NCBI RefSeq assembly: GCF_030316895.1
Contig: NZ_JASZYV010000004.1
Span: 248,001-312,000, forward strand
DNA from: Variovorax dokdonensis
Lineage (GTDB): Bacteria > Pseudomonadota > Gammaproteobacteria > Burkholderiales > Burkholderiaceae_C
Direction: 5' to 3'
DNA length: 64,000 nt
The notes beneath the pieces are model-generated. The model ran no database searches and was not told where the DNA came from. It saw only the letters and a program-made list of their open reading frames with translations. The position numbers and the translations under genes were made by a program. Shown piece after piece: positions 1 to 40,648 of this stretch. Numbering within the stretch: the stretch's first letter is position 1; each line of letters opens with the position of its first letter.

Positions 1-143
1 GCGGGCGGCTGCTGGATCGTGTGGGCGCGCTGGCTGGGCGCGGGTTTGTTGAGGTCGACGTTGGCCTGCGCCGCGGCGGTTCCCGCCAGGGCCGCCAGCA
101 CGGCGGTCGATGCAAGAAGACGCAAGAAGCTCGTGGTCTTCAT
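1..143 (-). CDS. Partial secreted protein, N-terminus only
   Basis: Only the first 47 codons lie in the window; the gene runs off the left edge. It starts with MKTTSFLRLL and continues with an Ala/Leu-rich hydrophobic stretch ending in TAAAQA, a typical Sec signal peptide with cleavage expected after AQA. The visible mature part (NVDLNKPAPSQRAHTIQQPP) is Pro/Gln-rich. The start is supported by CAGGAG seven to eight bases upstream. It follows cti on the same strand after an 87-base gap. The family cannot be told from this fragment. Confidence 0.6.
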   Translation of the reverse strand, partial: MKTTSFLRLLASTAVLAALAGTAAAQANVDLNKPAPSQRAHTIQQPP

Positions 144-19167: not shown

Positions 19168-20271
19168 ATGCCCTCTCTCTTCGATCCCGTCAAAGCCGGC
19201 GACCTCCAACTGGCCAACCGCATCGTCATGGCGCCGCTCACGCGCAACCGCTCGCCGAACGCCATTCCCAACGACCTCACGGCCACCTACTACGCCCAGC
19301 GCGCCACGGCCGGCCTGCTCATCACCGAAGCGACCGCCATCAGTCACCAGGGACAAGGCTATGCCGACGTGCCAGGCCTGTATGGCACCGAACAGCTCGA
19401 CGGCTGGAAGAAAGTGACCAATGCGGTCCACGCCAAGGGCGGCAAGATCGTGGTGCAGTTGTGGCACGTGGGACGCGTCTCGCACACCGAGCTGCAACCC
19501 GATGGCGGTCAGCCGGTCGCGCCTTCGGCCATCGCGGCCAAGACCAAGACCGTGCTCATCAAGGACGGCGTGCCCACGTTCGTCGAAACCTCCATGCCAC
19601 GCGCCCTCGATGCCAGCGAACTGCCCGGCATCGTGCACGCCTACCAGGCCGCCGCGCGCAACGCGGTCGAAACCGCGGGCTTCGACGGCGTCGAACTGCA
19701 TGGCGCCAACGGCTACCTGCTCGACCAGTTCCTGAAGACCGGCAGCAACAAGCGCACCGACGACTACGGCGGCAGCATCGAGAACCGTGCCCGCCTGCTG
19801 CTCGAAGCCACGCGCGCCGTGGTCGACGCCGTCGGCGGTGGCCGCACGGGCATCCGCCTGTCGCCCGTCACGCCGGCCAACGACGTGGTGGACGACGACC
19901 CGCAGCCGCTGTTCGAATACGTGGTGCGCCAGCTCGCCACGATGAACCTCGCCTACATCCACATCATCGAAGGCGCCACCGGCGGACCGCGCGAGATCGA
20001 CGATCGCCCCTTCGACTACGAGGCCCTCAAGACCGCCTATCGCGAAGCCGGCGGCAAGGGTGCCTGGATGGTCAACAACGGCTACGACAAGCCGCTGGCC
20101 GACGAAGCCGTGAAAGAAGGCGATGACCTGGTCGCTTTCGGCAAGCCCTTCATCGCCAACCCCGACCTGGTGCGTCGCCTTCGCGAGAACGCACCGCTCA
20201 ACGCGGTCGACAAGGCCACCATGTACGGCGGCGGCGCCAAGGGCTACACGGACTATCCGACGCTGGCCTGA
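19168..20271 (+). CDS. Alkene reductase of the Old Yellow Enzyme family (NemA-like)
   Basis: A 367-residue FMN-dependent ene-reductase. Signatures are [14 protein letters not shown] (FMN binding), [38 protein letters not shown] (His/Asn substrate-binding pair HGAN), [11 protein letters not shown] and [13 protein letters not shown]. It reduces activated C=C bonds or nitro-groups with NAD(P)H, a role compatible with the GST upstream. Start chosen at AGGAAAAC-ATG. Its last 19 bases overlap the 3' end of copA on the opposite strand. Confidence 0.93.
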
Positions 20272-22571
20272 TCGCCTGAAGGACGGCGGCTGCCGCTGCC
20301 CTCCTTCGTCCCCGACGGGCGCCAGCGCCGCAGCAGGAGCGCGTTGGACATCACGCTCACGCTCGACATCGCCATTGCCGCGCCGGCCACCACGGGGCTG
20401 AGCAGCCCGAACGCGGCCAGGGGAATGCCGGCCACGTTGTACGCAAAGGCCCAGAACAGGTTCTGCCGGATCTTGGCGACGGTGCGGGCCGACACCTCGA
20501 AGGCATCCGCCACCAATGACAGGTCGCCCCGCATGAGCGTGATGCCGGCGGCTTCCATCGCCACATCGGTGCCGTTGGCCATCGCCATCCCGACATCGGC
20601 CGCGGCCAGGGCCGGCGCGTCATTGGCCCCGTCGCCGACCATGGCCACCACGCGGCCCTGGGCACGAAGGGCACGGACCTCGGCCGCCTTGTCGCCTGGC
20701 AGCACCTCTGCGCGCACCTCCTGCGCATCGATGCCCAGACGCATGGCCATTGCCTCGGCAGCGCGGCGGTTGTCGCCGGAAATCATGACCACCCGCAAGC
20801 CCCGCGCTCGCAGCCGTGCGACAGCTTCGGCAGCACCGGGCTTGGGCTCGTCGGCAAAGGCGAGCAACGCGACCAATGCCGGCCGATCGGCCGCCTCCAA
20901 GCGCAACAACGCCGACACCGTGGCGCCTTGCGTGCCCAGCGGTCCAAGCAACGCGTCGCCGATCGGAACGCTCAGTTCCTCGCACCATCGCAGGCTGGCC
21001 AGCGCCCAGCGCTCGCCATTTGCCGAGGCAGTGCCACCGCTCACCCAGCCTTCCATGCCGCGACCTGCCACGGCGCGCAGATCGTGCGCCTGCGCCGCCG
21101 CGATTCCGGCGGCGTTGGCGGCATCGAGCACCGCCCGCGCCAATGGGTGGCTGCTGCCGGACTGCAGCGCCGCCGCCACTTCCAGCCAACGACGCGCATC
21201 GCCGTGCCCACCCAGTTCGTTCGCATGGATGTGCTCGCCCTGCGCCGACAGCAGCGCCGTCAATCGCGGATGGCCGACGGTCAGCGTGCCCGTCTTGTCG
21301 AAGGCCACGGTGTCGACGCGATGCGCGGTCTCCAGCGCCGCGGCGTCCTTGATGAGAATGCCTGCGCGCGCGGCCACGCCGGTGCCCGCCATCACCGAAA
21401 CCGGCGTGGCCAAGCCCAATGCACATGGGCAGGCGATCACCAGCACCGCCACCGCGTGAACCCAGGCGGATTCGGCATCCGCCCCGGCCAGCCACCACCC
21501 GAGCAGCGTGACCACGGCAATGCCGAGCACCACCGGCACGAACACCGCGGCCACCTTGTCGACCAGCCGCTGGATGGGCGCCTTGGCCGCCTGCGCGTCT
21601 TCCACCAGCCGGATGATGCGCGCCAGCACGCTTTCGGCACCCACGGCCCGCACCTCGACCAGCAGCCGGCCTTCCCCGTTGACCGAACCGCCTGTGACCA
21701 TGTCGCCCGTGGACTTGGGCACCGGAAGCGGCTCACCGGTGAGCATGGATTCGTCGACCGACGAGCTGCCCTCGGCCACCTGCGAGTCGGCAGGCACCCG
21801 CTCGCCGGGCAGCACGACCAGCCTGTCGCCGCCCAACAGTTCGCTCACCGGCACATCGCTCAACTTGCCATTGCGCGGATTCAGCAAGTGGGCCACTTCC
21901 GGCCGCAGCGCCTGCAAGGCACGGATGGCCGAGGTGGCCTGGCGCTTCGCGCGTGCCTCGAGCCACTTGCCGAGCATCACGAGCGCGATCACCACCGCCG
22001 ACGCCTCGAAATACAGATGCGGCGCGTGCCCTTCCGGAGCGCGCCACCAGAGCCACAGCGACAGCCCGAACGCGGCACTGGTGCCCATGGCCACCAGAAG
22101 GTCCATGTTCCCAGTGCCGGCACGCACCGCATGCCAGCCGGCGCGGTAGAAGTGCGCGCCCAGCCAGAACTGCACCGGAGCGGCCAACGCGAATTGCCAC
22201 CATGCCGGCAGCATCCAGTGCACGCCGAACGGCGCAAGCAGCATCGGCGCCACCAGCGGCGCACAAAGCAGCAAGCCTGCCGCAACGGGGCCGAAGCCGG
22301 TCCATGCCGAATCCGACCCTTCACCCGCTTCGAGACTCGACGCCTCGCGCGGCTCGTAGCCCGCATCGCGCACCGCACGGCGCAGCCGCGCCTGCAGTTC
22401 GTCGTCCGGCACGGCCATCACCCGAGCGCTCTCGGTGGCAAGATTGACGGATGCCTCCTGCACCCCGGGCACCTTGCGCAGGGCACGCTCCACGCGTCCC
22501 ACGCACGAGGCGCAAGTCATGCCGCTCACGCCCAGGTCGATCGGCTGAAGGGTTGCAGTATTGGTTGTCAT
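20253..22571 (-). CDS. copA: Copper-exporting P1B-type ATPase
   Basis: A 772-residue P1B ATPase that exports Cu(I) from the cytoplasm. It has one N-terminal metal-binding domain ([18 protein letters not shown]), eight expected membrane helices, the actuator motif [10 protein letters not shown], the transport motif CPC in [13 protein letters not shown], the phosphorylation loop [12 protein letters not shown], the HP motif in SSHPLARAV and the hinge [18 protein letters not shown]. It faces copZ-cueR across a 135-base region with two CueR-type promoters. The 3' end overlaps the ene-reductase gene. Confidence 0.96.
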
Positions 22572-22578
22572 GCCTGGC

Positions 22579-22609
22579 AGCGTATTCCTTCACATCATGT
22601 GAAGGTCAA
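22579..22609 (-). promoter_or_regulatory. CueR-type promoter and operator of copA
   Basis: Minus strand: -35 TTGACC (22609-22604), a 19-base spacer, and -10 TACGCT (22584-22579). The perfect palindrome CCTTCACATGATGTGAAGG (22587-22605) fills the spacer. An overlong 19-base spacer holding a dyad is the hallmark of MerR-family activated promoters, where the metal-bound regulator untwists the DNA. Confidence 0.88.
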
Positions 22610-22645
22610 GCCCTTGCATCGAAAATCCCGAACTGACGCATGGGC

Positions 22646-22676
22646 TTGACTCTTACATCATGTCAAGGTTGATACT
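22646..22676 (+). promoter_or_regulatory. CueR-type promoter of copZ-cueR
   Basis: -35 TTGACT (22646-22651), a 19-base spacer, and -10 GATACT (22671-22676). The spacer shares the core ACATCATGT with the copA operator, and CTTGAC/GTCAAG form an inverted repeat across it. The dyad is less perfect than the one at copA, so weaker activation or autoregulation is expected. Confidence 0.82.
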
Positions 22677-22706
22677 GGGTCGTTCCATTCTTCAAGGTCG
22701 GTACGC

Positions 22707-22904
22707 ATGAACCATCACGAAATACAGGTCAGCGGCATGAGCTGCAACCACTGCATCAATGCCATCAAGGACGCGCTGGCCGACCTCGATCCCCAGGCAC
22801 AGGTCCACGTCGACCTGCAAGGCGGCCTGGTCGTCGTCGATTCGGAACAGCCGCTCGAAGCTCTGCGCAACGCCATCGTCGAAGCTGGCTACGCCGTGCC
22901 ATGA
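22707..22904 (+). CDS. copZ: CopZ-like heavy-metal-associated copper chaperone
   Basis: A 65-residue HMA-domain protein. The metal-binding motif is GMSCNHC near residue 10, then CINAIKDALADLD and the closing VEAGYAVP, the ferredoxin-like fold of Atx1/CopZ. It presumably carries Cu(I) to CopA or CueR. The MSCNHC form differs slightly from the usual MTCxxC. Its stop codon overlaps the cueR ATG (ATGA), so the two are translationally coupled. Confidence 0.9.
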   Translation: MNHHEIQVSGMSCNHCINAIKDALADLDPQAQVHVDLQGGLVVVDSEQPLEALRNAIVEAGYAVP

Positions 22905-23344
22905 CCTCCAACATGCCAAGCTCCGACGCAACGCTGCTGATCGGCGACGCCGCGCGCCTGTCGGGCATCTCGGCCCGCATGCTGCGCCATTACGAGGACC
23001 TGGGCTTGCTGGGCGAGGTGCGCCGCAGCGAATCCGGGTACCGACGCTACAGCCTGTCGGACGTACACACCTTGCGCTTCATCAAGCGCTCGCGCGATCT
23101 GGGCTTCTCGATGGACCAGGTCACCGAACTGGTCGGCCTCTGGCGCAACCGGCGCCGCACGAGCGCCAGCGTCAAGCGCGTGGCGCAGGCGCACTTGCAG
23201 GAGCTGGAACAGCGCATCGCGGAAATGCAGGCCATGCAGCGCACGCTGGCCCACCTGGTGCATTGCTGCCATGGCGACCAGCGGCCCGACTGCCCCATCC
23301 TGGACGACCTGTCGCGCATCGACCCGCCAAAAGCCGAAGCCTGA
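22901..23344 (+). CDS. cueR: Copper-responsive MerR family activator CueR
   Basis: A 147-residue MerR-type regulator. The winged helix is IGDAARLSGISARMLRHYEDLGLL followed by RSESGYRRYSLSDVHTLRFIKRSRDLGFS. The metal-binding loop is HCCHGDQRPDCPIL, with Cys123 and Cys131 eight residues apart as in CueR Cys112/Cys120; this spacing identifies a Cu(I)/Ag(I) sensor rather than a mercury or zinc sensor. It activates the divergent copA and its own operon through the two 19-base-spacer promoters. Confidence 0.94.
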   Translation: MTSNMPSSDATLLIGDAARLSGISARMLRHYEDLGLLGEVRRSESGYRRYSLSDVHTLRFIKRSRDLGFSMDQVTELVGLWRNRRRTSASVKRVAQAHLQELEQRIAEMQAMQRTLAHLVHCCHGDQRPDCPILDDLSRIDPPKAEA

Positions 23345-23381: not shown

Positions 23382-24140
23382 ATGTCCAACCAGCAACGCG
23401 TCCTGATCGCCGAAGACGAGTCCGGCATCGCGGACACCCTGCAGTACGTGCTCAAGAGCGATGGCTTCGTGCCCGTGTGGTGCTCCACCGCGCAGAAGGC
23501 ACTGGACAGCTTCGCCGCCGAACGGCCCGCCATCGTCATCCTCGACGTCGGCCTGCCCGACATGAACGGCTTCGAGCTGTTCAAGCGCCTGCAGGCCCTC
23601 ACGCGCAACGGCGGCGGCCCCGAAGTGCCCATGCTTTTCCTGACCGCGCGCAGCGACGAGATCGATCGCGTCGTCGGCCTCGAACTGGGCGCGGACGACT
23701 ACATCACCAAGCCCTTCTCGCCGCGCGAACTGCTGGCACGCGTGCGCACGATCCTGCGCCGCAGCGGCATGTCCGCGCAAGGCGCTCCGGCAACGCCGGC
23801 GCCCGCCGCGCCATCGGCGGCCGTCGAATCGCCCACGCCCTTCGCGCTGGACGACGAGCGCCGCCAGATCCGCTTCTATGGCCGCGCACTCGATCTTTCG
23901 CGCTACGAATTCGGCTTGCTGCGGCAGATGGTTCAGCGCCCGGGCCGCGTGTTCACCCGCGACGAACTGCTCGCCCTGGTCTGGGACGAGTCGAGCGAAA
24001 GCTTCGACCGCACCGTCGATGCGCACGTCAAGACCCTGCGCGCCAAGCTGCGCGAAGTGGCGCCGGGCATCGAGCCCATCCGCACGCTGCGCGGCGTGGG
24101 CTATGCACTCGCCGAAGACCTGCCGGCGAAGGCCCCATGA
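23382..24140 (+). CDS. creB: OmpR-family response regulator, CreB-like
   Basis: A 252-residue regulator. The receiver domain has the acidic pocket EDE (residues 11-13), phospho-acceptor Asp55 in VILDVGLPD, and KPF at the end; the C-terminal winged helix shows YEFGLLRQMVQRPGRVFTRDELLALVW and RGVGYALAED. An Ala/Pro-rich linker joins them. Pairing with a CreC-like kinase identifies the CreBC system, which in enterobacteria and Aeromonas (as BlrAB) responds to PBP4 inhibition or envelope stress. A CreB-type repeat is found at 28216. Begins 37 bases after cueR; no separate promoter is obvious. Confidence 0.85.
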   Translation: MSNQQRVLIAEDESGIADTLQYVLKSDGFVPVWCSTAQKALDSFAAERPAIVILDVGLPDMNGFELFKRLQALTRNGGGPEVPMLFLTARSDEIDRVVGLELGADDYITKPFSPRELLARVRTILRRSGMSAQGAPATPAPAAPSAAVESPTPFALDDERRQIRFYGRALDLSRYEFGLLRQMVQRPGRVFTRDELLALVWDESSESFDRTVDAHVKTLRAKLREVAPGIEPIRTLRGVGYALAEDLPAKAP

Positions 24141-24162
24141 CGCGGCTCGCGCATTCCGCCTG

Positions 24163-25632
24163 ATGCCCCGCCCATCCGCACGCAGCGGCGCCCTTTCGCA
24201 GCGCACCCGCATCTTCATCGGCATCCTGCTGATCTACTTCGCGGGCATCGGCGTGTTGCTCTACCGCGTGGTGTCGGACATCGATCCGCGCTACCGCGAA
24301 TCGGCCGAGGAATCTCTGGTCGAGGTTTCCCAGCTCATGGCCAGCCTGGTCGAACAGGATGTGATCGCCGGCGCGATCCACACCAGCCGGCTCGAATCCC
24401 TGTTTCGATCGGCCTACGCGCGCGAGTTCTCGGCGCAGATCTACAGCCTGCACAAGACGCGGGTGGAACTGCGCATGTACGTGGTCGACCGCAACGGGCG
24501 CGTGATCTTCGATTCCACCGGGCGCGACACGGGCGCCGACTATTCGCGCTGGGCCGACGTGCGCCGTGGCCTGGCCGGCCAATATGGCGCACGCACCACG
24601 CGCGACATTCCCACCGACCCGCACACCTCCGTCATGTACGTGGCTGCGCCCGTGCGATGGGGCGACGAGATCGTGGGCAGCGTGAGCGTGGGCAAACCGG
24701 TGCAAAGCTTCGGCCAGTTCGTGCAGGATGCGCGCGCCCGCACGCTGGCCGTGGGCGTCGGGTCGGCCATCGCCCTGCTGCTGCTGGCGCTCATCGTGTC
24801 GGTGTGGCTGGTGCGGCCCTTCGGCCTGATGTCCGACTACTGGCGCTGGATGCGCCGCCAGCGCGAATTCAATCTCGGACGCATGACGCGCCGCGCCGTG
24901 GACACGCTGCGCGGCGGCCTGCGAGAGATCCGCGATTCGCTGGCGGGACGAAGCTACGTGGCCGACTACGTGCAGACCTTCACGCACGAGATCAAGAGCC
25001 CGCTGTCGGCCATTCGCGGCGCCGCCGAGCTGCTGCAGGAGCCGGGCATGAACGAGGCCGAGCGTGCGCACTTCCTGGCCAACATCAGCAACGAGACCCA
25101 GCGCATCCAGGACATCGTCGACCGGATGATGCAGCTCACCGCCCTCGAAACCCAGCGCGCGCTGGACCGCAGCGAGATGGTGGCCCTCGGCCCGCTGCTG
25201 AACGAAGTGGCCGCCGCCTCGCAGGGCGCGGCCTCCCAGCGGCAGATCCGCCTGCATGTGGCGATCGACAGCAACGCGCGCGTGGAAGGCGATCCTTTTC
25301 TGCTGCGCCAGGCGCTGACCAATCTGGTCGACAACGCCATCGACTTCTCGCCTTCCGATGCGGAAGTGGCGCTGGCCCTGCATGTCGGCCCGCGCGAGGC
25401 ACGCATCACCGTTCGCGACCACGGCCCGGGCATTCCCGACTATGCGCGCGACCAAGTGTTCGAGAAGTTCTATTCGCTGGCGCGGCCGCACAACAGCAGG
25501 CGCAGCACCGGCCTCGGCCTGGCCTTCGTCAAGGAGATCGCGACCCTGCACCGGGGCCGCATCGAACTGGCCAACGCGCCTCGCGGTGGAGCCATCGCCA
25601 CGCTCACGCTGCCGCTGCTGGCGCCCGGCTGA
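24163..25632 (+). CDS. creC: Sensor histidine kinase, CreC-like
   Basis: A 489-residue membrane kinase. A first helix (IFIGILLIYFAGIGVLLY, about residues 17-34) precedes a periplasmic Cache-like sensor domain of about 160 residues, then a second helix (SAIALLLLALIVSVWLV). The H box is YVQTFTHEIKSPLSAIRGAA with His275, followed by N box LVDNAIDFSP, G1 DHGPGIP and G2 STGLGLAFVKEI. Starts 22 bases after creB. The creD gene that usually follows creC is absent; instead PBP1A is convergent, 33 bases away. Confidence 0.88.
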   Translation: MPRPSARSGALSQRTRIFIGILLIYFAGIGVLLYRVVSDIDPRYRESAEESLVEVSQLMASLVEQDVIAGAIHTSRLESLFRSAYAREFSAQIYSLHKTRVELRMYVVDRNGRVIFDSTGRDTGADYSRWADVRRGLAGQYGARTTRDIPTDPHTSVMYVAAPVRWGDEIVGSVSVGKPVQSFGQFVQDARARTLAVGVGSAIALLLLALIVSVWLVRPFGLMSDYWRWMRRQREFNLGRMTRRAVDTLRGGLREIRDSLAGRSYVADYVQTFTHEIKSPLSAIRGAAELLQEPGMNEAERAHFLANISNETQRIQDIVDRMMQLTALETQRALDRSEMVALGPLLNEVAAASQGAASQRQIRLHVAIDSNARVEGDPFLLRQALTNLVDNAIDFSPSDAEVALALHVGPREARITVRDHGPGIPDYARDQVFEKFYSLARPHNSRRSTGLGLAFVKEIATLHRGRIELANAPRGGAIATLTLPLLAPG

Positions 25633-25665
25633 AGCCGCGCGCCAGCGACTCGCGCAGGCCGGCCC

Positions 25666-28134
25666 TCAGCGGAAGAGATCCAGGATGCTCTTGCGGCGTT
25701 CGGCATTCGCCGGCGGTGGCGCAGGTGCCACCACCCCCGCCTCAGCGGGCATGTTGCTGCCGAAGCCCGGCACCGAGCCCGGTGCGACGGTCTGCCAACC
25801 CGAAGGCGAGAAAGGCGCTGAACCGCTGCTGTCCACACCCAGGCTGGCCACCGCACGGCCAGGCGGGTAGTCGTCGTAGTACCACTCGCCGTCGAGCATG
25901 GCCACGCCATCGGGCGCCTGCGACTTGGCCACCGGCACGCCCTTGAGGGCCGTCTGCATGTAGGACGTCCACACCGGCAGGCTCAGGCTGCCTCCGGTCT
26001 CGCCGCGCACGCCGAGTTGTCGCGGGTTGTCGTAGCCGATCCAGGCGATGCCCACCATGCTGGGCTGAAAGCCCGCGAACCAGGTGTCGTACGAATCATT
26101 GGTCGTGCCGGTCTTGCCGTACAGGTCTTCGCGGCGCAGCGTGCGGTAGGCGCGCGAGCCGGTGCCGTTCTTGACCACGCTTTGCAGCAGCGAGCGCATG
26201 ATGAAGGCATTGCGCGCCGGAATCGCGCGCATCGATTCGTCCAGCGCCGGCTCGTCGGCCTGGAACAGCACCTGCGCGTTGCGCTCCACCACCTTGGTCA
26301 CGAGCAAGGGCGTGACGCGGTAGCCGCCATTGGCGAACACGCTGTAGGCCACCGCCATCTGCATCGGCGTGACCGAACCCGCGCCCAGCGCCATCGGCAG
26401 GTAAGGCGGTTGCTTGTCGGCGTCGAAGCCGAAGCGCGTCACCCAGTCCTGCGCGTAATTGGTGCCAATGCTTTGCAGCACGCGGATAGTCACCATGTTC
26501 TTGGACTTCTGCAGCGCCTCGCGCAGCGTCATGGGTCCTTCGAAGCCGCCGTCGTAGTTCTTGGGCTCCCAGGGCTGGCCGCCGGTGGTGGCGCGGTCGA
26601 AGAAGAGCGGGCCGTCCTCCACCACCGTCGAAGGCGCGAAGCCTTTTTCGAGCGCGGCCGAATAGATGAACGGCTTGAAGCTCGAACCTGGCTGACGCCA
26701 GGCCTGCGTGACGCGATTGAACTGCCCACGCGCGAAATCGAAACCGCCCACCATCGCCTTGACGGCGCCGGATTGCGGGTTCATCGCGACGAAGGCGCCT
26801 TCCACCTCGGGCAGCTGCACCACTTCCCAATCGCCCTTGGCGTTCTTGACGATGCGCAAGATGGCGCCACGCGCCACGCGCTGGCGCGCATCGGCACGCG
26901 AAGACAGGCCTCCCTGCACCAGCCGCAGCCCGGCGCCATCGATGGTCACCGTGCTGCCGTCGCGCCGCGCCAGCTCGAGCTTCTTCGGCTCGGCCTTGAG
27001 CACCACGGCCGATTCCACCTGCTCGTCGCCCGGGTGCGCGGCCAGGGCTTCGTCGACGGCGTCGTCCACATCATCGGGCGCATCCGGCAGCGACACGGTC
27101 TGCTCCGGGCCGCGCCAGGGTTGGCGGCGTTCGTAGTCCAGCAAGCCGTTGCGCAAGGCCTGCCAGGCCGCAGTCTGGTCCTTCGAGTCGATGGCGGTCG
27201 TCACCGTCAGGCCGCGCGTGTAGGCGCTTTCGCCGTACTGCGCGACCATCTGTTGGCGCACCATCTCCGCCACGTATTCGGCATGCAGGCGGGGCGCGTC
27301 GGAATCGGCGCGCAGCTTGAGCTTTTCCTGCCGCGCCAGCTCGGCCTGCTCATGCGTGATGAAGCCCAGCGATTCCATGCGCTCGATGACCCACAGCTGC
27401 CGCGCGCGGGCGCGGCGCGGGTTGACCACCGGGTTGTTCGCGCCGGGTGCCTTCGGCAGGCCGGCCAGCATGGCGGCCTCGGCCACGGTGATGTTCGCAA
27501 TGGGCTTGCCGAAGTAGGCCTCGCTGGCCGCCGCGAAGCCGTAGGCCCGCTGGCCCAGGTAGATCTGGTTCAGGTAGATGGTGAAGATCTGGTCCTTGGA
27601 AAGCTCATCCTCCAGGCGCAAGGCAATGATCGCCTCGCGCAGCTTGCGGCTGAAGGTGCGCTCGGGCGTCAGGTAGACGTTCTTCGCCACCTGCTGCGTG
27701 ATGGTGGACGCGCCCTGGTTCAGCCCATGCAGCGTGTTCGACACGATGGCACGCATCAGGCCTACGGTGTCGATGCCGCCATGCTCGTAGAAGCGCGCGT
27801 CCTCGGCGGCCAGCACGGCGTTGCGCATCACCATGGGAATCTGGTCGAGCGGCACCAGTTGCCGGCGCTCCTCGCCGAACTCGCCGATGGTGACGCCATC
27901 GGCCGTCAGCACGCGGAGCGGCAGCTTGGGCTGGTAGTCGGCCAGTTGCCGCACATCCGGAATGCTGGGATAGACGAGCGTCACGGCCACGCCCACCAGC
28001 AGCACGCCAGCCAGCGCCGAGCCGCCGACGATCAGCGCGATCCAGCCCCACACCCCGCGCGGAAGGTGCCATCTGCGTGCGCCGCGGGCGCGTCCGGTCT
28101 TCGAGTTCTTCTTCGATCTGTCTTGCTGAGCCAC
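25666..28134 (-). CDS. mrcA: Penicillin-binding protein 1A (bifunctional glycosyltransferase/transpeptidase)
   Basis: An 822-residue class A PBP that polymerises and cross-links peptidoglycan. One transmembrane helix (IALIVGGSALAGVLLVGVAV) precedes the GT51 domain with AAEDARFYEHGG, GASTITQQVAKN, RKLREAIIALRLE and LNQIYLGQRAYGFAAASEAYFGK. The transpeptidase domain has the active-site SSFK (PGSSFKPFIYSAALEKG), SKN (QKSKNMV) and KTG (GKTGTTNDSYDTWFAG). A GTG start with AGGAG seven bases upstream is preferred over a TTG 19 codons earlier. Convergent with creC and divergent from the exosortase cassette; a CreB-type repeat lies upstream. Confidence 0.95.
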   Translation of the reverse strand: MAQQDRSKKNSKTGRARGARRWHLPRGVWGWIALIVGGSALAGVLLVGVAVTLVYPSIPDVRQLADYQPKLPLRVLTADGVTIGEFGEERRQLVPLDQIPMVMRNAVLAAEDARFYEHGGIDTVGLMRAIVSNTLHGLNQGASTITQQVAKNVYLTPERTFSRKLREAIIALRLEDELSKDQIFTIYLNQIYLGQRAYGFAAASEAYFGKPIANITVAEAAMLAGLPKAPGANNPVVNPRRARARQLWVIERMESLGFITHEQAELARQEKLKLRADSDAPRLHAEYVAEMVRQQMVAQYGESAYTRGLTVTTAIDSKDQTAAWQALRNGLLDYERRQPWRGPEQTVSLPDAPDDVDDAVDEALAAHPGDEQVESAVVLKAEPKKLELARRDGSTVTIDGAGLRLVQGGLSSRADARQRVARGAILRIVKNAKGDWEVVQLPEVEGAFVAMNPQSGAVKAMVGGFDFARGQFNRVTQAWRQPGSSFKPFIYSAALEKGFAPSTVVEDGPLFFDRATTGGQPWEPKNYDGGFEGPMTLREALQKSKNMVTIRVLQSIGTNYAQDWVTRFGFDADKQPPYLPMALGAGSVTPMQMAVAYSVFANGGYRVTPLLVTKVVERNAQVLFQADEPALDESMRAIPARNAFIMRSLLQSVVKNGTGSRAYRTLRREDLYGKTGTTNDSYDTWFAGFQPSMVGIAWIGYDNPRQLGVRGETGGSLSLPVWTSYMQTALKGVPVAKSQAPDGVAMLDGEWYYDDYPPGRAVASLGVDSSGSAPFSPSGWQTVAPGSVPGFGSNMPAEAGVVAPAPPPANAERRKSILDLFR

Positions 28135-28215
28135 TGAGGCACTCCTCGCCAACTTCGATGGGAACGGATCATCCGTTCCCTGCTGAAGCAAGTATGAAGT
28201 CCTGCCCCGGTCAAC

Positions 28216-28231
28216 TTCACACAGTTTTCAC
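28216..28231 (+). promoter_or_regulatory. CreB-type tag, TTCAC-N6-TTCAC
   Basis: TTCACACAGTTTTCAC is an exact match to the cre/blr tag (two TTCAC direct repeats separated by six bases) recognised by CreB of E. coli and BlrA of Aeromonas. It lies in the intergenic region between mrcA and the VIT/VWA gene, oriented toward the latter and 115 bases from its ATG. A creB homologue is encoded 4 kb away. A palindrome GAGTTCCCGAACTC (28244-28257) follows and has no assigned role. Confidence 0.65.
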
Positions 28232-28345
28232 ACAGGCCGACGCGAGTTCCCGAACTCTTCCTACGCCCTTCGCACGCGGACGCAACAGTGCCGTCCGGGA
28301 GAGGCGCACATCCCGTGCGACCACCATCGAGAAGAAGGACCCCTC

Positions 28346-30403
28346 ATGCCATCGCACCGCCGTGCCCGCCAGCTCTGGATCGTGACCCTGATGCTGGCCA
28401 TCGCGTGTTTCATCCTGTTGCTGACCCAACCGGCGCAGGCGCAGGATCTGCCGCGCCAGAAGACCGAAAGCCCCTATTTCCAGGTGCGCGGCGGCGATGC
28501 CTCGCTCGACCGCCTGCCGCTCAAGTCGACCGACGTCGATGTGCAGATCGCCGGCCCGATTGCACGGGTGCGGGTCACGCAGGCCTATCGCAACGAAGGC
28601 ACCCGCACCCTGGAGGCGAGCTACGTTTTCCCGGGCTCCACCCGCGCCGCGGTGGATGGCCTGACCATCCGCCTGGGCAACCGGCTCGTGGAAGCCACGA
28701 TCCGTGAAAAGCAGCAGGCGCGCCGCGAATACGACGAGGCGCAGAAAGAGGGCAAGACCGCGGCACTGCTGGAGCAGCACCAGCCCAACGTCTTCCAGAT
28801 GAAGGTGGCCAACATCCTGCCTGGCGACGAGGTGCGGGTGGAGTTGCGATACAGCGAACTGCTGGTCCCCGAAGACGGCCAGTACCAGTTCGTCTTTCCT
28901 ACCGTGGTCGGGCCGCGCTACAACAGCCCCGCATCGGAGAACGCGCAAGCCAGGTGGGTCGCGCAGCCGATCCTGCGCGCAGGCGATCCACCCACCGCGC
29001 GGTTCTCGATGAAGGTGGGCATCGACACGCCTGTGCCGATCGCCACGTTGCGCAGCCGCACGCATGCGGCGGACATCGCGCACGAGACCGGGTCGCGGCA
29101 TGCACAACTGACGCTGGGTCCGGACGCCAACGCGGCCAATCGCGACTTCGTGCTCGACTTCAGCCTCGCCGGCGCCGCCATGCAGACCGGCGTGATGCTC
29201 TATCCCGGCCAAGGCCCCGACGCGGAGAACTTCTTCCTTGCGATGGTGCAGCCGCCCGCCTCCGTGCCCGCCCAGTCGGTGCTGCCGCGCGAATACATCT
29301 TCGTGGTCGACATCTCCGGCTCGATGCACGGCTTCCCGCTCGACACGGCCAAGACCATGCTCAACCGCCTGATCGGCGGCCTGCGACCCAGCGACACCTT
29401 CAACGTGATGCTCTTTGCCGGCAGCAACGAGATGCTGTCGCCACGCTCGGTGCCCGCGACCCGCGCCAACATCGACCGCGCGGTGCAGATGCTCGGGCAG
29501 ACGCGCGGCGGCGGCAGCACCGAGCTGATTCCGGCCTTGCGCGAGGTCTACCGCTATCCGCGCAGCGAGCAGGTCTCGCGCACGGTGGTGGTCGTGACCG
29601 ACGGCTACGTCACTGTGGAGCGCGAAGCCTTCGAACTGGTGCGTCGCAACCTGTCGCAAGCCAACGTGTTCGCCTTCGGCATCGGCAGCTCGGTCAACCG
29701 GCACCTGATCGAAGGTCTGGCCCGCGCAGGCATGGGCGAGCCCTTCGTCATCACCGACCCGGTGCAGGCCGAACGCGAAGCGGCGCGCTTTCGCCGCATG
29801 GTCGAATCGCCTGTGCTCACGCAGGTCAAGGCGCGCTTCGAAGGCCTGGATGCCTACGATGTGACGCCGCAAGCCCTGCCCGACGTGCTGGGCAATCGTC
29901 CGCTCGTCGTCTTCGGCAAATGGCGCGGCAAGCCGCAGGGCCGCCTGGTCATCGATGGCAAGAGTGCCCAGGGCCCGTGGCGCGAATCTCTTGCCATCGG
30001 GAGCGACAACGTCAAGCCCGATGCCACGGCCCTGCAAAGCCTCTGGGCGCGCCACAAGGTCGCAGAGCTGGAAGACCAGGCCGCACTGGAAGGCGGCGAC
30101 GCGTTGCGCGAACCCATCACGCAGATGGGGCTGCGCTATCGCCTGCTCACCTCGCACACCAGCTTCATCGCGGTCGACCACGTCGTGCGGGCCAGCCCGG
30201 CGGACGGCAGCACGCGCGTCGACCAGCCCCTTCCGCTGCCGCATGGCGTGAGCGAGCTGGCCGTGGGCGACGCGAGCGGCGGCGTCACCGTGCCAGGCAC
30301 ACCGGAGCCCGAAACGCTTGGCGCGATGGCGCTCGTGCTGTCGATGCTGGCCATGCTGCATCGGCGCGCACGGCGCCGCGATCCGCGTCGATTCACCGAA
30401 TGA
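28346..30403 (+). CDS. VIT and VWA domain surface protein with PEP-CTERM-like sorting tail
   Basis: A 685-residue exported protein. An N-terminal signal segment (IVTLMLAIACFILLLTQPAQAQ) precedes a VIT domain (about 45-175, with ASYVFPG and FQMKVANILPGDEVRVELRY) and a VWA domain starting near 316, whose MIDAS motif is D322-I-S-G-S, with conserved Thr/Asp further on. The C-terminus has PEP at 653-655, a hydrophobic helix (TLGAMALVLSMLAML) and a basic cluster (HRRARRR), the three-part layout of an exosortase sorting signal. The exosortase gene follows after 34 bases. Related VIT/VWA proteins are known as dedicated targets of proteobacterial sortases. AGAAGGA precedes the start. Confidence 0.87.
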   Translation: MPSHRRARQLWIVTLMLAIACFILLLTQPAQAQDLPRQKTESPYFQVRGGDASLDRLPLKSTDVDVQIAGPIARVRVTQAYRNEGTRTLEASYVFPGSTRAAVDGLTIRLGNRLVEATIREKQQARREYDEAQKEGKTAALLEQHQPNVFQMKVANILPGDEVRVELRYSELLVPEDGQYQFVFPTVVGPRYNSPASENAQARWVAQPILRAGDPPTARFSMKVGIDTPVPIATLRSRTHAADIAHETGSRHAQLTLGPDANAANRDFVLDFSLAGAAMQTGVMLYPGQGPDAENFFLAMVQPPASVPAQSVLPREYIFVVDISGSMHGFPLDTAKTMLNRLIGGLRPSDTFNVMLFAGSNEMLSPRSVPATRANIDRAVQMLGQTRGGGSTELIPALREVYRYPRSEQVSRTVVVVTDGYVTVEREAFELVRRNLSQANVFAFGIGSSVNRHLIEGLARAGMGEPFVITDPVQAEREAARFRRMVESPVLTQVKARFEGLDAYDVTPQALPDVLGNRPLVVFGKWRGKPQGRLVIDGKSAQGPWRESLAIGSDNVKPDATALQSLWARHKVAELEDQAALEGGDALREPITQMGLRYRLLTSHTSFIAVDHVVRASPADGSTRVDQPLPLPHGVSELAVGDASGGVTVPGTPEPETLGAMALVLSMLAMLHRRARRRDPRRFTE

Positions 30404-30437
30404 GCTTTCACGAATCCACACACCAAGGCAGATCGCC

Positions 30438-31355
30438 ATGAACCTTTCCCGACTCGCCGCGCAGCATCCCCGCCTGTTCGACGGCTGCCTGCACATCGAC
30501 CGCCTGCCGCCATTGCTGTGGCTGGCACTTCAGGCCGCGGCGCTGCTGCCGACCTGGCTGTGGATGGCACGCCGTGCCACCGACGGCTCGGACGATCCGC
30601 TGGGCCTGCTGGCGTTGTCGGCGCTGGGCCTGCTGGTCTGGCGCGAACGCCGCGCCTTGCGCGCGGCGCCGGTGCTGGGCTGGATGGCCGCCGCAGGCAT
30701 CGCCACGCTGGCTGCCACCGCCATGCGCAACGGACTCGGGCCGCTGCCCGCATGGCCGCCGCTGGTCAGCGCGCTGGCCGCGGTGCTGGCGCTGGCCGCC
30801 GGCCTGCTGGCATTGCTGCCGCGCCGGGTCGCCGCGGCGCCTGTGCTGGGGCTGGCGGTGCTGGCGCTTCCGCTGCTGGCCTCGCTGCAGTTCTACGCCG
30901 GCTATCCGCTGCGCGTGGTGTGCGCGGAGGCCAGCCGGCTCTTGCTGTCGCCATGGTTCTCGCACGTGCAGCGCGAAGGCTCGAGCCTGCTGGTCGATGG
31001 CCTGCCGGTGATCGTCGACGCGCCCTGCTCCGGTGTCCAGATGGCCTGGTTCGGCTACTTCGTCGCCTGCAGCGTGGCGTTGTGGTGCGGGCTGGGCAAT
31101 CGCGCTTTCATGGCGCGCCTGCCGGTCGTCGGCGCCCTCGTGCTGGTGGGCAACATCGTGCGCAACAGCCTGCTCATCGGGCTGGAGGGCGCCGGCATGG
31201 CGCCATCGCCGGCCATGCATGAAGCGGTGGGGCTGGCCATGCTGGCACTGGTGTGCGCCGTGGTCGCGTTCGCAATGACACCGCGCACCGAACGCCGCAG
31301 CTCGGCCTCGATGGTCGACCTGACGCCGCAACCCGTCTCATCGCGCCAGGCCTGA
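30438..31355 (+). CDS. Exosortase (XrtA-like family) dedicated to the adjacent VIT/VWA protein
   Basis: A 305-residue integral membrane protease/transpeptidase with about eight hydrophobic segments. The catalytic residues of the exosortase family are in place: Cys197 in VDAPCSGVQM, Arg242 in NIVRNSLLIG and His261 in SPAMHEAVGL. Exosortases cleave PEP-CTERM tails and probably attach the protein to the envelope. It is between its presumed only substrate and an EpsI-like gene, with no exopolysaccharide genes nearby, which suggests a one-substrate system. Confidence 0.9.
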   Translation: MNLSRLAAQHPRLFDGCLHIDRLPPLLWLALQAAALLPTWLWMARRATDGSDDPLGLLALSALGLLVWRERRALRAAPVLGWMAAAGIATLAATAMRNGLGPLPAWPPLVSALAAVLALAAGLLALLPRRVAAAPVLGLAVLALPLLASLQFYAGYPLRVVCAEASRLLLSPWFSHVQREGSSLLVDGLPVIVDAPCSGVQMAWFGYFVACSVALWCGLGNRAFMARLPVVGALVLVGNIVRNSLLIGLEGAGMAPSPAMHEAVGLAMLALVCAVVAFAMTPRTERRSSASMVDLTPQPVSSRQA

Positions 31356-31373
31356 TCGCAAGACGCCACACCC

Positions 31374-31964
31374 ATGTTCAACCCACCTTTGGTTCCATTC
31401 ATGCGCAACTTGTTCGCCAACCGCTTTCTCCACCGCGCCGCGCACAAGGCGCTCTTCGCCGGCCTGATGCTCGTGTGCGTGCTGTGGTCGTCCGTGCATG
31501 CCTGGGTGTCGGCACCTGCGCCGGTCGCAACGCGCACGCACATCGGCGCCGAATGGCCCACGCAGTGGGATGGCGCGCCGCTGCGGCCCCTCGCGCTCGG
31601 CGATGTCGAGCAGCGCTTTGCCCGGCAGTTTCCCGGTGCCATGACCCGCATGACCGATGGCCGCCGCACGATGGTGATGCGCCGCGTCGACACACCCACC
31701 CGCATGCTGCACCCCGCCACCGACTGCTACCGCGCTCTGGGCTTCAAGGTGAGCGACGAGCGGCTGGTGCAGGACGCCCAGGACCGCCGCTGGCGCTGCT
31801 TCACCGCCGGAAAGGACGGCATGCCGACCCTGTCGGTCTGTGAGCGCATCGAGGATGCACAGGGCCACGCCTTCACCGACACGTCTGCCTGGTACTGGTC
31901 CGCCGTACTCGGCGATTCGACCGGCCCCTGGCAGGCCGTGACGGTCGCCGCGCCGGCCACCTGA
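31374..31964 (+). CDS. Exosortase-associated EpsI-like protein
   Basis: A 196-residue protein with one N-terminal membrane segment (KALFAGLMLVCVLWSSVHAW). The middle segment LHPATDCYRALGFKV resembles the HxxxxCY...GW region of EpsI proteins that accompany exosortases, and two more cysteines follow (RWRCF, SVCERI). Only 18 bases separate it from the exosortase. Resemblance to EpsI is by pattern only; EpsI is often fused to or next to exosortases and its biochemical role is unclear. Convergent with the AraC gene. Confidence 0.6.
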   Translation: MFNPPLVPFMRNLFANRFLHRAAHKALFAGLMLVCVLWSSVHAWVSAPAPVATRTHIGAEWPTQWDGAPLRPLALGDVEQRFARQFPGAMTRMTDGRRTMVMRRVDTPTRMLHPATDCYRALGFKVSDERLVQDAQDRRWRCFTAGKDGMPTLSVCERIEDAQGHAFTDTSAWYWSAVLGDSTGPWQAVTVAAPAT

Positions 31965-39274: not shown

Positions 39275-40648
39275 ATGAACAAGGTCCTGCGCCTAGCCCT
39301 CTACACGCTGCTTGCCCTGGTCCTCACCAGCGTCTTCGCCCTGGTGCTGATCGTGAAGTTCGCACTGGCGCCTTCGTCGGGCGAATGGTCCGAGCGCGTC
39401 AGGATCATCGGGCCGGTCGAAGCCGAGCTGGGCATGCCCACGGTGCTGCGGCTGGCCACCGTCTCCTGGTTCGCGCCCTGGCTGTCCGGCCATACGCTCG
39501 ACACCCGATTCGGCCCGGTGCTCCTGGGCTGGAACGCCACCAGCAAATCGCTGGTGATGACCTGCGCGCCCTGCCAATGGTCGGAGCCTGAGCTGGGCGA
39601 CAAGCCCATCGCGCTCGAAAGCTTCGAGATCACCGCCAGCCGCGACGTGGATTTGCTCACCGGCACGCTGCGCGCCACGCCGGCGGGCAGCCAGGCGGCC
39701 GGCGGTGCCACCGACCTGCGCGGCCGCTGGAACGGCCGGCTGACGCAAAAGGGCCTTTCGCTTTCCTTCGACGTGGGCAGCGCGCCCATCGCGCAGTGGT
39801 ACCAGTTGCTGGCCCCCGGCCTGCCCGAACTGCAGCGCGCCCGAATCTCCGGCACGGCCACGATACAGGCCAAGTTCTCGCTGCCCGAGCGCACTTACAG
39901 CGTCAAGCCGAGCCTGACCCAGTTCAGTGTTGAAGGTCTGGGCGTGACGTCCCTGATGGTGTCGCGCGCCGCCGCCTGCGGGCCCAGCGCCGGCCTGTCG
40001 GAAGGCAGCTGGGTGGCCAAGGCGGCATTGGGCGCGCTCGACCCGGAATACAAGGATCACCCGGGCTACGACCCGGCCAGCCTCATGGTGGCGTCCGAGG
40101 TGCAACCCGGCCTCAGCCCGGCCTCCGGCGAGAAGCCGGCGAAGAAGAGGAACGACAAGGCGGCGCCAAAGGCAGGCGCACCGGCCGCCGCCACGGGGGC
40201 GGGCGGGGCCGTTTCCGTCCGGCAGCCCGCGCCGCCGCCGACCCTGGACGAGCGCGTCGTGCGCCTATTGCTGCCACCGCTGCCCAACGCCGGCCAGCAG
40301 CGCCTGCGCGAGCTGCTGTACGTGGCAGAACTCGAACGCTCCCCGGGCAAGGACGGGCTGCTCGCAGGCTTCCTCGACATGGCCCCGTGGGGCGACAACA
40401 TCTGCGGGGCCGAAGCCGCCGCTCGGCGCTACTTCAAGCGCAGCGCCAACGGCCTCGCACCAGCCCAGGCGGTGTGGCTCGCCACCTTGCTCGACGATCC
40501 GGCAGGCCGCGTCGCCCGCTGGCAGTCCGAAGGCCAGATCGACCGGGAACGCGCCCGCCAGGTGGTGCAGGGCATGAAAGACGTCAACGGCGGACAGCGT
40601 GCCGCGCTCTACAGCACCCTGTCGCGCGCCAAGTTCCCGCCGCCGTGA
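39275..40648 (+). CDS. Degenerate GT51 (peptidoglycan glycosyltransferase-like) membrane protein
   Basis: A 457-residue protein with an N-terminal membrane helix (about 5-28). The C-terminal part (359-405: KDGLLAGFLDMAPWG, CGAEAAARRYFKRSANGLAPAQAVWLATLL) aligns with GT51 motifs 4 and 5. The catalytic motif EDxxFxxHxGfD appears only as ALDPEYKDHPGYDPASL (about 254-270), with Asp in place of the catalytic Glu, and no STITQQ motif is seen; residues 283-322 are instead Lys/Ala/Pro-rich. It is most likely a catalytically inactive relative. The family label is tentative. ATG at MNKVLRL chosen because it begins the anchor; a start 12 codons earlier is possible. Confidence 0.68.
   Translation: MNKVLRLALYTLLALVLTSVFALVLIVKFALAPSSGEWSERVRIIGPVEAELGMPTVLRLATVSWFAPWLSGHTLDTRFGPVLLGWNATSKSLVMTCAPCQWSEPELGDKPIALESFEITASRDVDLLTGTLRATPAGSQAAGGATDLRGRWNGRLTQKGLSLSFDVGSAPIAQWYQLLAPGLPELQRARISGTATIQAKFSLPERTYSVKPSLTQFSVEGLGVTSLMVSRAAACGPSAGLSEGSWVAKAALGALDPEYKDHPGYDPASLMVASEVQPGLSPASGEKPAKKRNDKAAPKAGAPAAATGAGGAVSVRQPAPPPTLDERVVRLLLPPLPNAGQQRLRELLYVAELERSPGKDGLLAGFLDMAPWGDNICGAEAAARRYFKRSANGLAPAQAVWLATLLDDPAGRVARWQSEGQIDRERARQVVQGMKDVNGGQRAALYSTLSRAKFPPP

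Follow-up and report, generated by a model that had tools for sequence, protein, structure and literature searches.

What is a binding tag of the CreBC two-component system doing in front of an exosortase operon? In a 64-kb stretch of the Variovorax dokdonensis genome (the window, by which the whole stretch analysed is meant), an exact cre/blr tag, TTCAC-N6-TTCAC, lies between mrcA, which encodes PBP1A, and an operon encoding a VIT/VWA protein, exosortase Q (XrtQ) and an EpsI-like protein. A first-pass annotation had noticed this tag and the nearby homologues of creB and creC, and had proposed that the protein-sorting cassette, and perhaps mrcA, belong to a cell-wall-stress regulon. The comparison with relatives described here makes it very likely that the tag is a genuine CreB operator controlling, and most likely activating, VIT/VWA-xrtQ-epsI as an envelope output of CreBC. 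The tag was found again on the plus strand, and creB and creC, adjacent to each other, both score above the curated NCBIfam cut-offs. From the tag, mrcA is transcribed away on one side and the three-gene operon on the opposite side:

23382 to 24140, plus strand: creB, OmpR-family response regulator (NF008296, 303.3 bits, cut-off 273)
24163 to 25632, plus strand: creC, sensor histidine kinase (NF008312, 573.6 bits, cut-off 356)
25666 to 28134, minus strand: mrcA-type PBP1A, GT51 plus transpeptidase (TIGR02074, 613.8 bits, cut-off 508.75)
28216 to 28231, plus strand: cre/blr tag TTCAC-N6-TTCAC, putative CreB operator of the cassette
28346 to 30403, plus strand: VIT/VWA protein (PF08487, PF13768) with C-terminal PEP-CTERM TPEPETLGAMALVLSMLAMLHRRARRR
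30438 to 31355, plus strand: xrtQ, exosortase Q (NF012182, 351.6 bits, cut-off 270)
31374 to 31964, plus strand: EpsI-like protein (NF033770, E = 1.4e-8, positions 299-388)

A conserved box in front of the exosortase Q operon

Does the tag mean anything? Judged on the window alone, a single exact match is weak evidence. The sequence TTCACACAGTTTTCAC is the sole exact match in the 64 kb, and a scan allowing one mismatch gives 5 sites against 1.82 expected. The whole genome (4,969,407 bases in 9 contigs) holds two exact matches; the second lies inside an aspartyl-tRNA synthetase-like coding sequence (L001, named from reading the translation), and the copy at 28216-28231 is the sole extragenic one. 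The evidence becomes strong because the tag is kept in relatives. An XrtQ protein search of named genomes gave 14 loci, from Variovorax, Xenophilus, Polaromonas, a Burkholderiales bacterium and metagenome-assembled genomes (MAGs) binned as Azonexus and Desulfobulbus, and a hidden Markov model (HMM) search of the family found XrtQ above cut-off in 46 of the 299 genomes sampled, that of the window included. From the other 45 of these, 45 regions were taken, together with four from three genomes with XrtQ fragments. L092-L095, with xrtQ fragments or no VIT/VWA hit, were dropped before the count of 60 loci; L095 has a tag between creC and the xrtQ fragment and L093 one adjoining creC.

In 54 of the 60 loci, the window included, an exact tag in the same orientation precedes the VIT/VWA gene by at most 450 bp (by at most 300 bp in 53), and a copy with one mismatch does so in four more (L014, L065, L088, L090). 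The other two are not assessable, the VIT hit of L079 being without its N-terminus and L085 being cut by a contig end. Conservation of both TTCAC repeats was the check that the first-pass annotation had named for its own proposal, and it came out positive. Counted by genus, 21 of the family's 26 with XrtQ have an exact tag and 24 have it within one mismatch, the other two again not being assessable. The remainder of the loci, window excluded (1,030,641 bp), contains one exact tag on the same strand and two on the other; with three copies on both strands in 1.03 Mb, a chance match was rejected. Spacers of 4, 5, 7 and 8 and the reversed pattern were sought over the 300 bp before VIT/VWA and occur in 0 of 60. 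Repeats of the shifted patterns CTTCA and ACTTC scored 41/60 and 22/60, and because they overlap the tag itself they are no controls. In 37 loci whose VIT/VWA proteins are less than 80% identical, the ten tag columns average 2.15 bits, against 0.085 for 42 upstream positions, and the consensus of the region is about ACTTCACrCnGACTTCACACA. L079 and L085 were excluded from these 37-locus statistics and from the 58-locus ones given below; no other locus was excluded for want of a tag.

Which regulator reads the box?

The published cre/blr tag precedes creD and the beta-lactamase genes of Aeromonas (PMC3660660, PMC4689548). Does creD carry the same box in this family? Where CreC and CreD occur without XrtQ, the region upstream of creD has an exact tag in 43 of 70 genomes and a copy with one mismatch in 20 of 70, mostly 90-110 bp before the start of the CreD HMM match (70 of 72 genomes were covered; G003 and G021 were left out). 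The unlinked creD genes of XrtQ genomes (n = 10, one with a partial XrtQ) have boxes too: four exact, five with one mismatch and one with two. In E. coli K-12, too, creD is preceded by an exact tag, which begins within the end of creC and is followed by further TTC repeats roughly 10 bp apart. The C-terminal CreB stretch DRTVDAHVKTLRAKLR matches DRTVDTHIKTLRAKLR of the E. coli protein, and what we take, from its position within CreB, to be the recognition helix is alike, with small changes, in 30 CreB proteins of linked loci. At the level of sequence comparison, the identification of the tag as a CreB-type operator of the VIT/VWA-exosortase operon is well supported.

Is the cassette found where CreBC is found? 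CreC is above cut-off in 122 of the 299 family genomes and in 45 of the 46 with XrtQ (Fisher 2.8e-19, phylogeny ignored); among the named genomes it is above cut-off in 13 of 14. Genomes with the cassette almost always have CreBC too, a near-dependence. In several XrtQ genomes creBC is on another contig or distant (G005, G017, G105, G193, G205), and the tag is kept there, exact or with one mismatch in four of the five, G017 (L079) being not assessable. Ten mixed genera show the same contrast, with CreC in 13/13 XrtQ-positive against 5/14 XrtQ-negative genomes, a difference which within-genus shuffling reaches in 0.085% of trials (permutation 0.00085). Outside the family, a sample of the order (399 genomes) yielded five with an XrtQ match at E below 1e-36, drawn from four other families; one of these matches exceeds the cut-off. 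CreC is present in every one of the five, and the upstream tag is exact in four and has one mismatch in the fifth. Six more genomes of this sample matched XrtQ weakly (E 5.8e-5 to 6.7e-4) and were left out. Membership of the cassette in a CreB regulon, as first proposed, is strongly supported by tag conservation, by likeness to the creD box and by co-occurrence with CreBC; the mrcA part of that proposal is weak.

In two of these five loci, L198 and L199 (about 7.5-11.3 kb, reverse complement), a VIT-like protein, an XrtQ-like exosortase and an EpsI-like protein stand behind an exact tag. Their exosortase and VIT protein look like another subtype, the VIT protein having membrane helices at its N-terminus and a tail with VPEPE.

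Loss of creD and the place of mrcA

A PF06123 search of the whole genome gave no match, with a positive E. coli control, in agreement with the earlier statement that creD is missing. Has the cassette taken its place? CreD was found in 93 of the 299 family genomes. Among those with CreC it is kept in 72 of 74 without XrtQ and in 18 of 45 with XrtQ (Fisher 1e-12, phylogeny again ignored; the partial-XrtQ genomes G148, G118 and G027 were left out). The suggestion that the cassette replaces creD agrees with this phyletic pattern, whereas a strict one-for-one replacement was rejected because 18 of the 45 genomes carry both. The pattern suggests that both outputs do related envelope work.

How did mrcA come to lie beside the tag? 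In the same-genus genomes G122, G215 and G285, mrcA and the tag are separated by creD, read from the minus strand; therefore the ancestral order was probably mrcA - creD - operator - VIT/VWA, and with creD lost from this genome mrcA came to adjoin the tag. In 18 loci the divergent neighbour across the tag is creD (10) or mrcA (8, window included). As far as these gene orders tell, the tag is the ancestral CreB operator of creD and the cassette, and mrcA is apparently its neighbour by deletion. The tag as an element of mrcA was rejected, for it persists where mrcA does not adjoin it (Polaromonas and many others).

Is mrcA nevertheless a target? The sole support for such a link is a feature that the first-pass annotation had missed:

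28183 to 28198, minus strand: degenerate CreB-type box TTCATACTTGCTTCAG, 2 mismatches, facing mrcA

A neighbour-facing box (TTCACAC..CCTTCGG or similar, 1-3 mismatches) stands 17 bp from the tag in 8/8 mrcA loci. In the creD loci (n = 10) the distance is 17-18 bp in five and 28-48 bp in four; the best match of L053 stands at 63 bp. Boxes with 2-3 mismatches are individually weak, and the argument rests on their constant position; the one in the window is a probable remnant of the creD promoter. Could mrcA have become a real CreB target here by capturing that promoter? This is possible, if doubtful. The window and the seven other creD-less, mrcA-adjacent loci share the box at 17 bp from the tag, with 1-2 mismatches. 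Against capture, the window's box has two mismatches, creD shields mrcA in the three same-genus relatives, and PBP1A, a housekeeping gene, is expected to have its own promoter. Of the earlier suggestion that mrcA may belong to the regulon there remains a possible but secondary role: the tag persists without mrcA and creD intervenes within the genus, and the degenerate box leaves mrcA a weak candidate for a derived CreB target.

Architecture of the putative operator

How could CreB act on the cassette from this position? Two further features lie between the tag and the VIT/VWA gene, the first of them also missed before:

28247 to 28271, plus strand: second half-site group, TTC at 28247, 28258 and 28269 (11-bp phase)
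28284 to 28289, plus strand: candidate -10 element AACAGT, predicted

Across the 37 loci, further TTC half-sites downstream of the tag peak at +30..33, +41..45 and +52..53, and in Polaromonas loci the 11-bp half-site ladder is nearly unbroken. Hexamers resembling a -10 element occur at +56..60, +67..68 and +78..79, a spacing that is again about 11 bp. They are present in 47 of 58 loci, and in the mirror stretch upstream of the tag in 7, the list of -10-like motifs having been drawn up after inspection of the sequences.

Some relatives carry more than one tag. L067, L071 and L074 (genus g16) have 2-3 overlapping exact tandem tags, that is 3-4 half-sites 11 bp apart, about 260-320 bp upstream of VIT/VWA, and paired overlapping tags are also present in L056, L059, L063 and L066.

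The cassette and other genes behind the box

What does the operon make? The tail of the VIT/VWA protein scores 17.2 bits against TIGR02595 (cut-off 16), and a P[EQ]P motif, a hydrophobic stretch and a basic tail end this protein in 57 of the 60 loci; it is the presumed substrate of XrtQ. The xrtQ translation contains DAPCSG, NIVRN and MHEAVG, possible counterparts of the Cys-Arg-His active site of exosortases. For the EpsI-like protein Pfam gave no match; its similarity is to the C-terminal part of the exosortase T model. In relatives a fourth gene encodes a protein that is anchored in the membrane and carries a GT51 transglycosylase domain; the gene lies downstream of VIT/VWA in 57 of 59 relatives (58/60 with the window). 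The window's homologue, likewise missed before, is displaced about 7.3 kb beyond the cassette, behind a block of araC, branched-chain transporter and aldehyde dehydrogenase genes (named by reading their translations, not by a family search):

39275 to 40648, plus strand: displaced GT51-like fourth cassette gene, 46-49% identity to the cassette GT51 of L003

The first catalytic motif, ED..[FY]..H.G, occurs in 56 of 58 GT51 hits and was not found in the window or in L085 (contig end). GGST[ILV]..Q accompanies it in 33/58, and therefore this pattern is too strict or the motif variable; the window has neither.

Are other genes tagged? With a stricter tag pattern, 42 of the 46 XrtQ genomes were scanned; it matched at 49 sites, spread over 36 genomes, and the reversed pattern at 4. 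Twelve of the 49 lie at neither VIT/VWA nor creD: three at murA-like genes, one at an alpha-2-macroglobulin-like gene, and eight within coding sequence or before genes without an evident tie. The exact tag is just upstream of the murA-like gene in L268 (G096), L267 (G212) and L266 (G105). The two of these genes that were tested are over the cut-off of NF006873 and below the equivalog cut-off of TIGR01072; that of G105 was called from its first residues only. These sites suggest that CreB may control a MurA-type enzyme, perhaps a second one. In L260, from the same-genus genome G215, an exact tag stands about 70 bp before a large alpha-2-macroglobulin-like open reading frame (ORF), which has a sub-threshold Pfam match to the bacterial alpha-2-macroglobulin MG3 domain at the sequenced end.

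On the other side of the tag, the mrcA product scores below the equivalog cut-off of NF008643, and its GTG start at 28134 was chosen from the Shine-Dalgarno-like GGCGAGGAG, the ORF being open to 28191. Just upstream of this start lies a further element:

28160 to 28180, no strand assigned: perfect 21-bp palindrome GGGAACGGATNATCCGTTCCC

There is no other genomic site within two mismatches of its 19-base core, and it may be a hairpin of the 5' untranslated region or an operator. Beyond creB, copA (minus strand) and cueR (20253-23344) adjoin it here and in the relatives L013, L015, L050, L060 and L095, so that this neighbourhood is conserved.

A model, its alternatives and what it would mean

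How might the parts work together? On an envelope signal, probably from peptidoglycan, CreC would phosphorylate CreB. Phosphorylated CreB would bind the 11-bp tandem repeats, strongly at 28216-28231 and more weakly at the phased repeats that lead downstream to the promoter, and would control, most likely activate, the VIT/VWA-xrtQ-epsI operon. The VIT/VWA protein would then be exported and its PEP-CTERM tail handled by exosortase Q. Because the operon of relatives also makes a peptidoglycan glycosyltransferase (GT51), the cassette can be seen as serving envelope maintenance under CreBC, either alongside CreD or instead of it. Here creD would have been deleted between mrcA and the operator, leaving mrcA beside a decayed creD box. 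What the comparison shows is the conservation of the box, its likeness to that of creD, the gene content and the near-dependence of the cassette on CreBC; that CreB binds and activates, what CreC senses and what the sorted protein does are inferred.

Several points weigh against this reading. In seven of the 70 creD regions the best match to the box has two or more mismatches. G104 has XrtQ and CreC not over the cut-off (its assembly is 76% complete), and so does the MAG of L016. The Fisher p-values take no account of phylogeny, shared ancestry being addressed by the within-genus test alone. The fourth cassette gene is displaced and degraded in this genome. Among controls from the same class, the 30 best-scoring marine proteobacterial sortase VIT/VWA genes (450 bp upstream of the profile start), the exact tag occurs in 0/30 and a one-mismatch copy in 1/30 (L250: just 184 bp upstream available); this control, taken irrespective of CreBC status, shows only that the tag is no general feature of VIT/VWA genes. 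Lastly, two published systems behave differently. In Stenotrophomonas maltophilia CreBC represses creD, and beta-lactams are described as without effect on creD; in E. coli CreBC responds to carbon metabolism (PMC4689548 for both).

Because of this repression and this metabolic signal, neither the sign of the regulation nor its signal can be transferred. Does CreB then repress the cassette, or answer a metabolic rather than a cell-wall signal? We consider this rather unlikely. CreBC activates creD in E. coli, Aeromonas and P. aeruginosa (PMC4689548), and in P. aeruginosa loss of PBP4 or cefoxitin raises creD via CreBC, for which reason the signal is probably peptidoglycan stress (PMC2654508). 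The half-sites lie upstream of and up to the -10-like element, which we take to be a usual layout for an activator, and some of the other genes near tags (murA-like, GT51, alpha-2-macroglobulin-like) are envelope genes.

Regulators of the OmpR family generally recognise tandem repeats that are spaced by one turn of the helix, and a genome of this size usually has many such regulators. Could another member of the family, for example of ColR type, use the TTCAC direct repeat? This seems very improbable. The likely recognition helix matches that of E. coli CreB, the same box precedes creD, and the cassette tracks CreC even within genera; moreover, the half-site and the 11-bp period match the published cre/blr tag (PMC3660660). 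Least probable of all, to the point of being hardly credible, is that the tag serves the gene transcribed the other way (creD, or in this genome mrcA) and lies near VIT/VWA through incidental synteny: creD is indeed divergent across the tag in 10/18 loci, with a box facing creD or mrcA there, yet the exact tag points at VIT/VWA in 54/54 loci with no opposite exact copy within 300 bp, it is kept without adjacent creD or mrcA (e.g. L012, L013, L015, L016, L050, L058, L060), and distant creD genes have boxes of their own.

What would a CreB operator of the cassette mean? It would be a conserved switch before a protein-sorting operon, seen in many environmental bacteria. CreBC is widespread and tied to beta-lactam responses, and the comparative evidence joins this little-understood stress system to the likewise little-understood exosortase Q, on which our literature search found no paper. 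CreBC status would then predict when the exosortase operon is on, and a small operon whose switch can be predicted and whose presumed substrate is encoded alongside is convenient for studying exosortase function. Little has been published on the function of CreD, the common CreBC target (PMC4689548). As a tentative idea, held with somewhat less than even confidence, the output of CreBC may be an exchangeable one for envelope repair, being either CreD or a dedicated exosortase with a VIT/VWA substrate and GT51, with VIT/VWA replacing CreD and the regulon recruiting murA-like genes and, once creD is gone, PBP1A. If so, the sorted VIT/VWA protein would do the job of CreD and creD would be dispensable, as here.

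Relation to known systems

Has such a link been described? A literature search on exosortases with CreBC, the VIT domain or XrtQ gave nothing relevant, most subscription journals being outside its coverage. As far as searches reach, the CreBC-exosortase link is undescribed, and the first-pass annotation had likewise known of no CreBC-controlled exosortase. A CreB-labelled regulator of a Burkholderia biofilm operon was set aside, as that operon is a different one, with a LysM/FecR gene (PMC5192318).

With the CreBC/BlrAB systems of E. coli, Aeromonas and P. aeruginosa the locus shares CreB, CreC and the tag; creD carries the same tag in this family, and the extra TTC repeats after the tag in the E. 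coli creD promoter are like those of the cassette promoter. It differs in its tagged output, an exosortase operon, and in having no creD in the genome. With PEP-CTERM/exosortase systems (EpsH/XrtA) it has in common an exosortase above cut-off, a PEP-CTERM tail and an EpsI-like partner. Classic systems of this kind have many targets and exopolysaccharide genes, whereas here the operon has an adjacent VIT/VWA target and a CreB box, to which relatives add the GT51 gene; of the PEP-CTERM targets of the genome the comparison covers this adjacent one. The marine dedicated sortase system consists of a kinase and a regulator (TIGR03785/03787) with a VIT/VWA target (TIGR03788). The target here, at 421.4 bits, is below the TIGR03788 cut-off of 551.65, CreB is far below the TIGR03787 cut-off, and the sorting enzyme is an exosortase. 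The layout is nonetheless alike, a VIT/VWA target with a sorting enzyme and a two-component system, and the likeness appears to be convergent.

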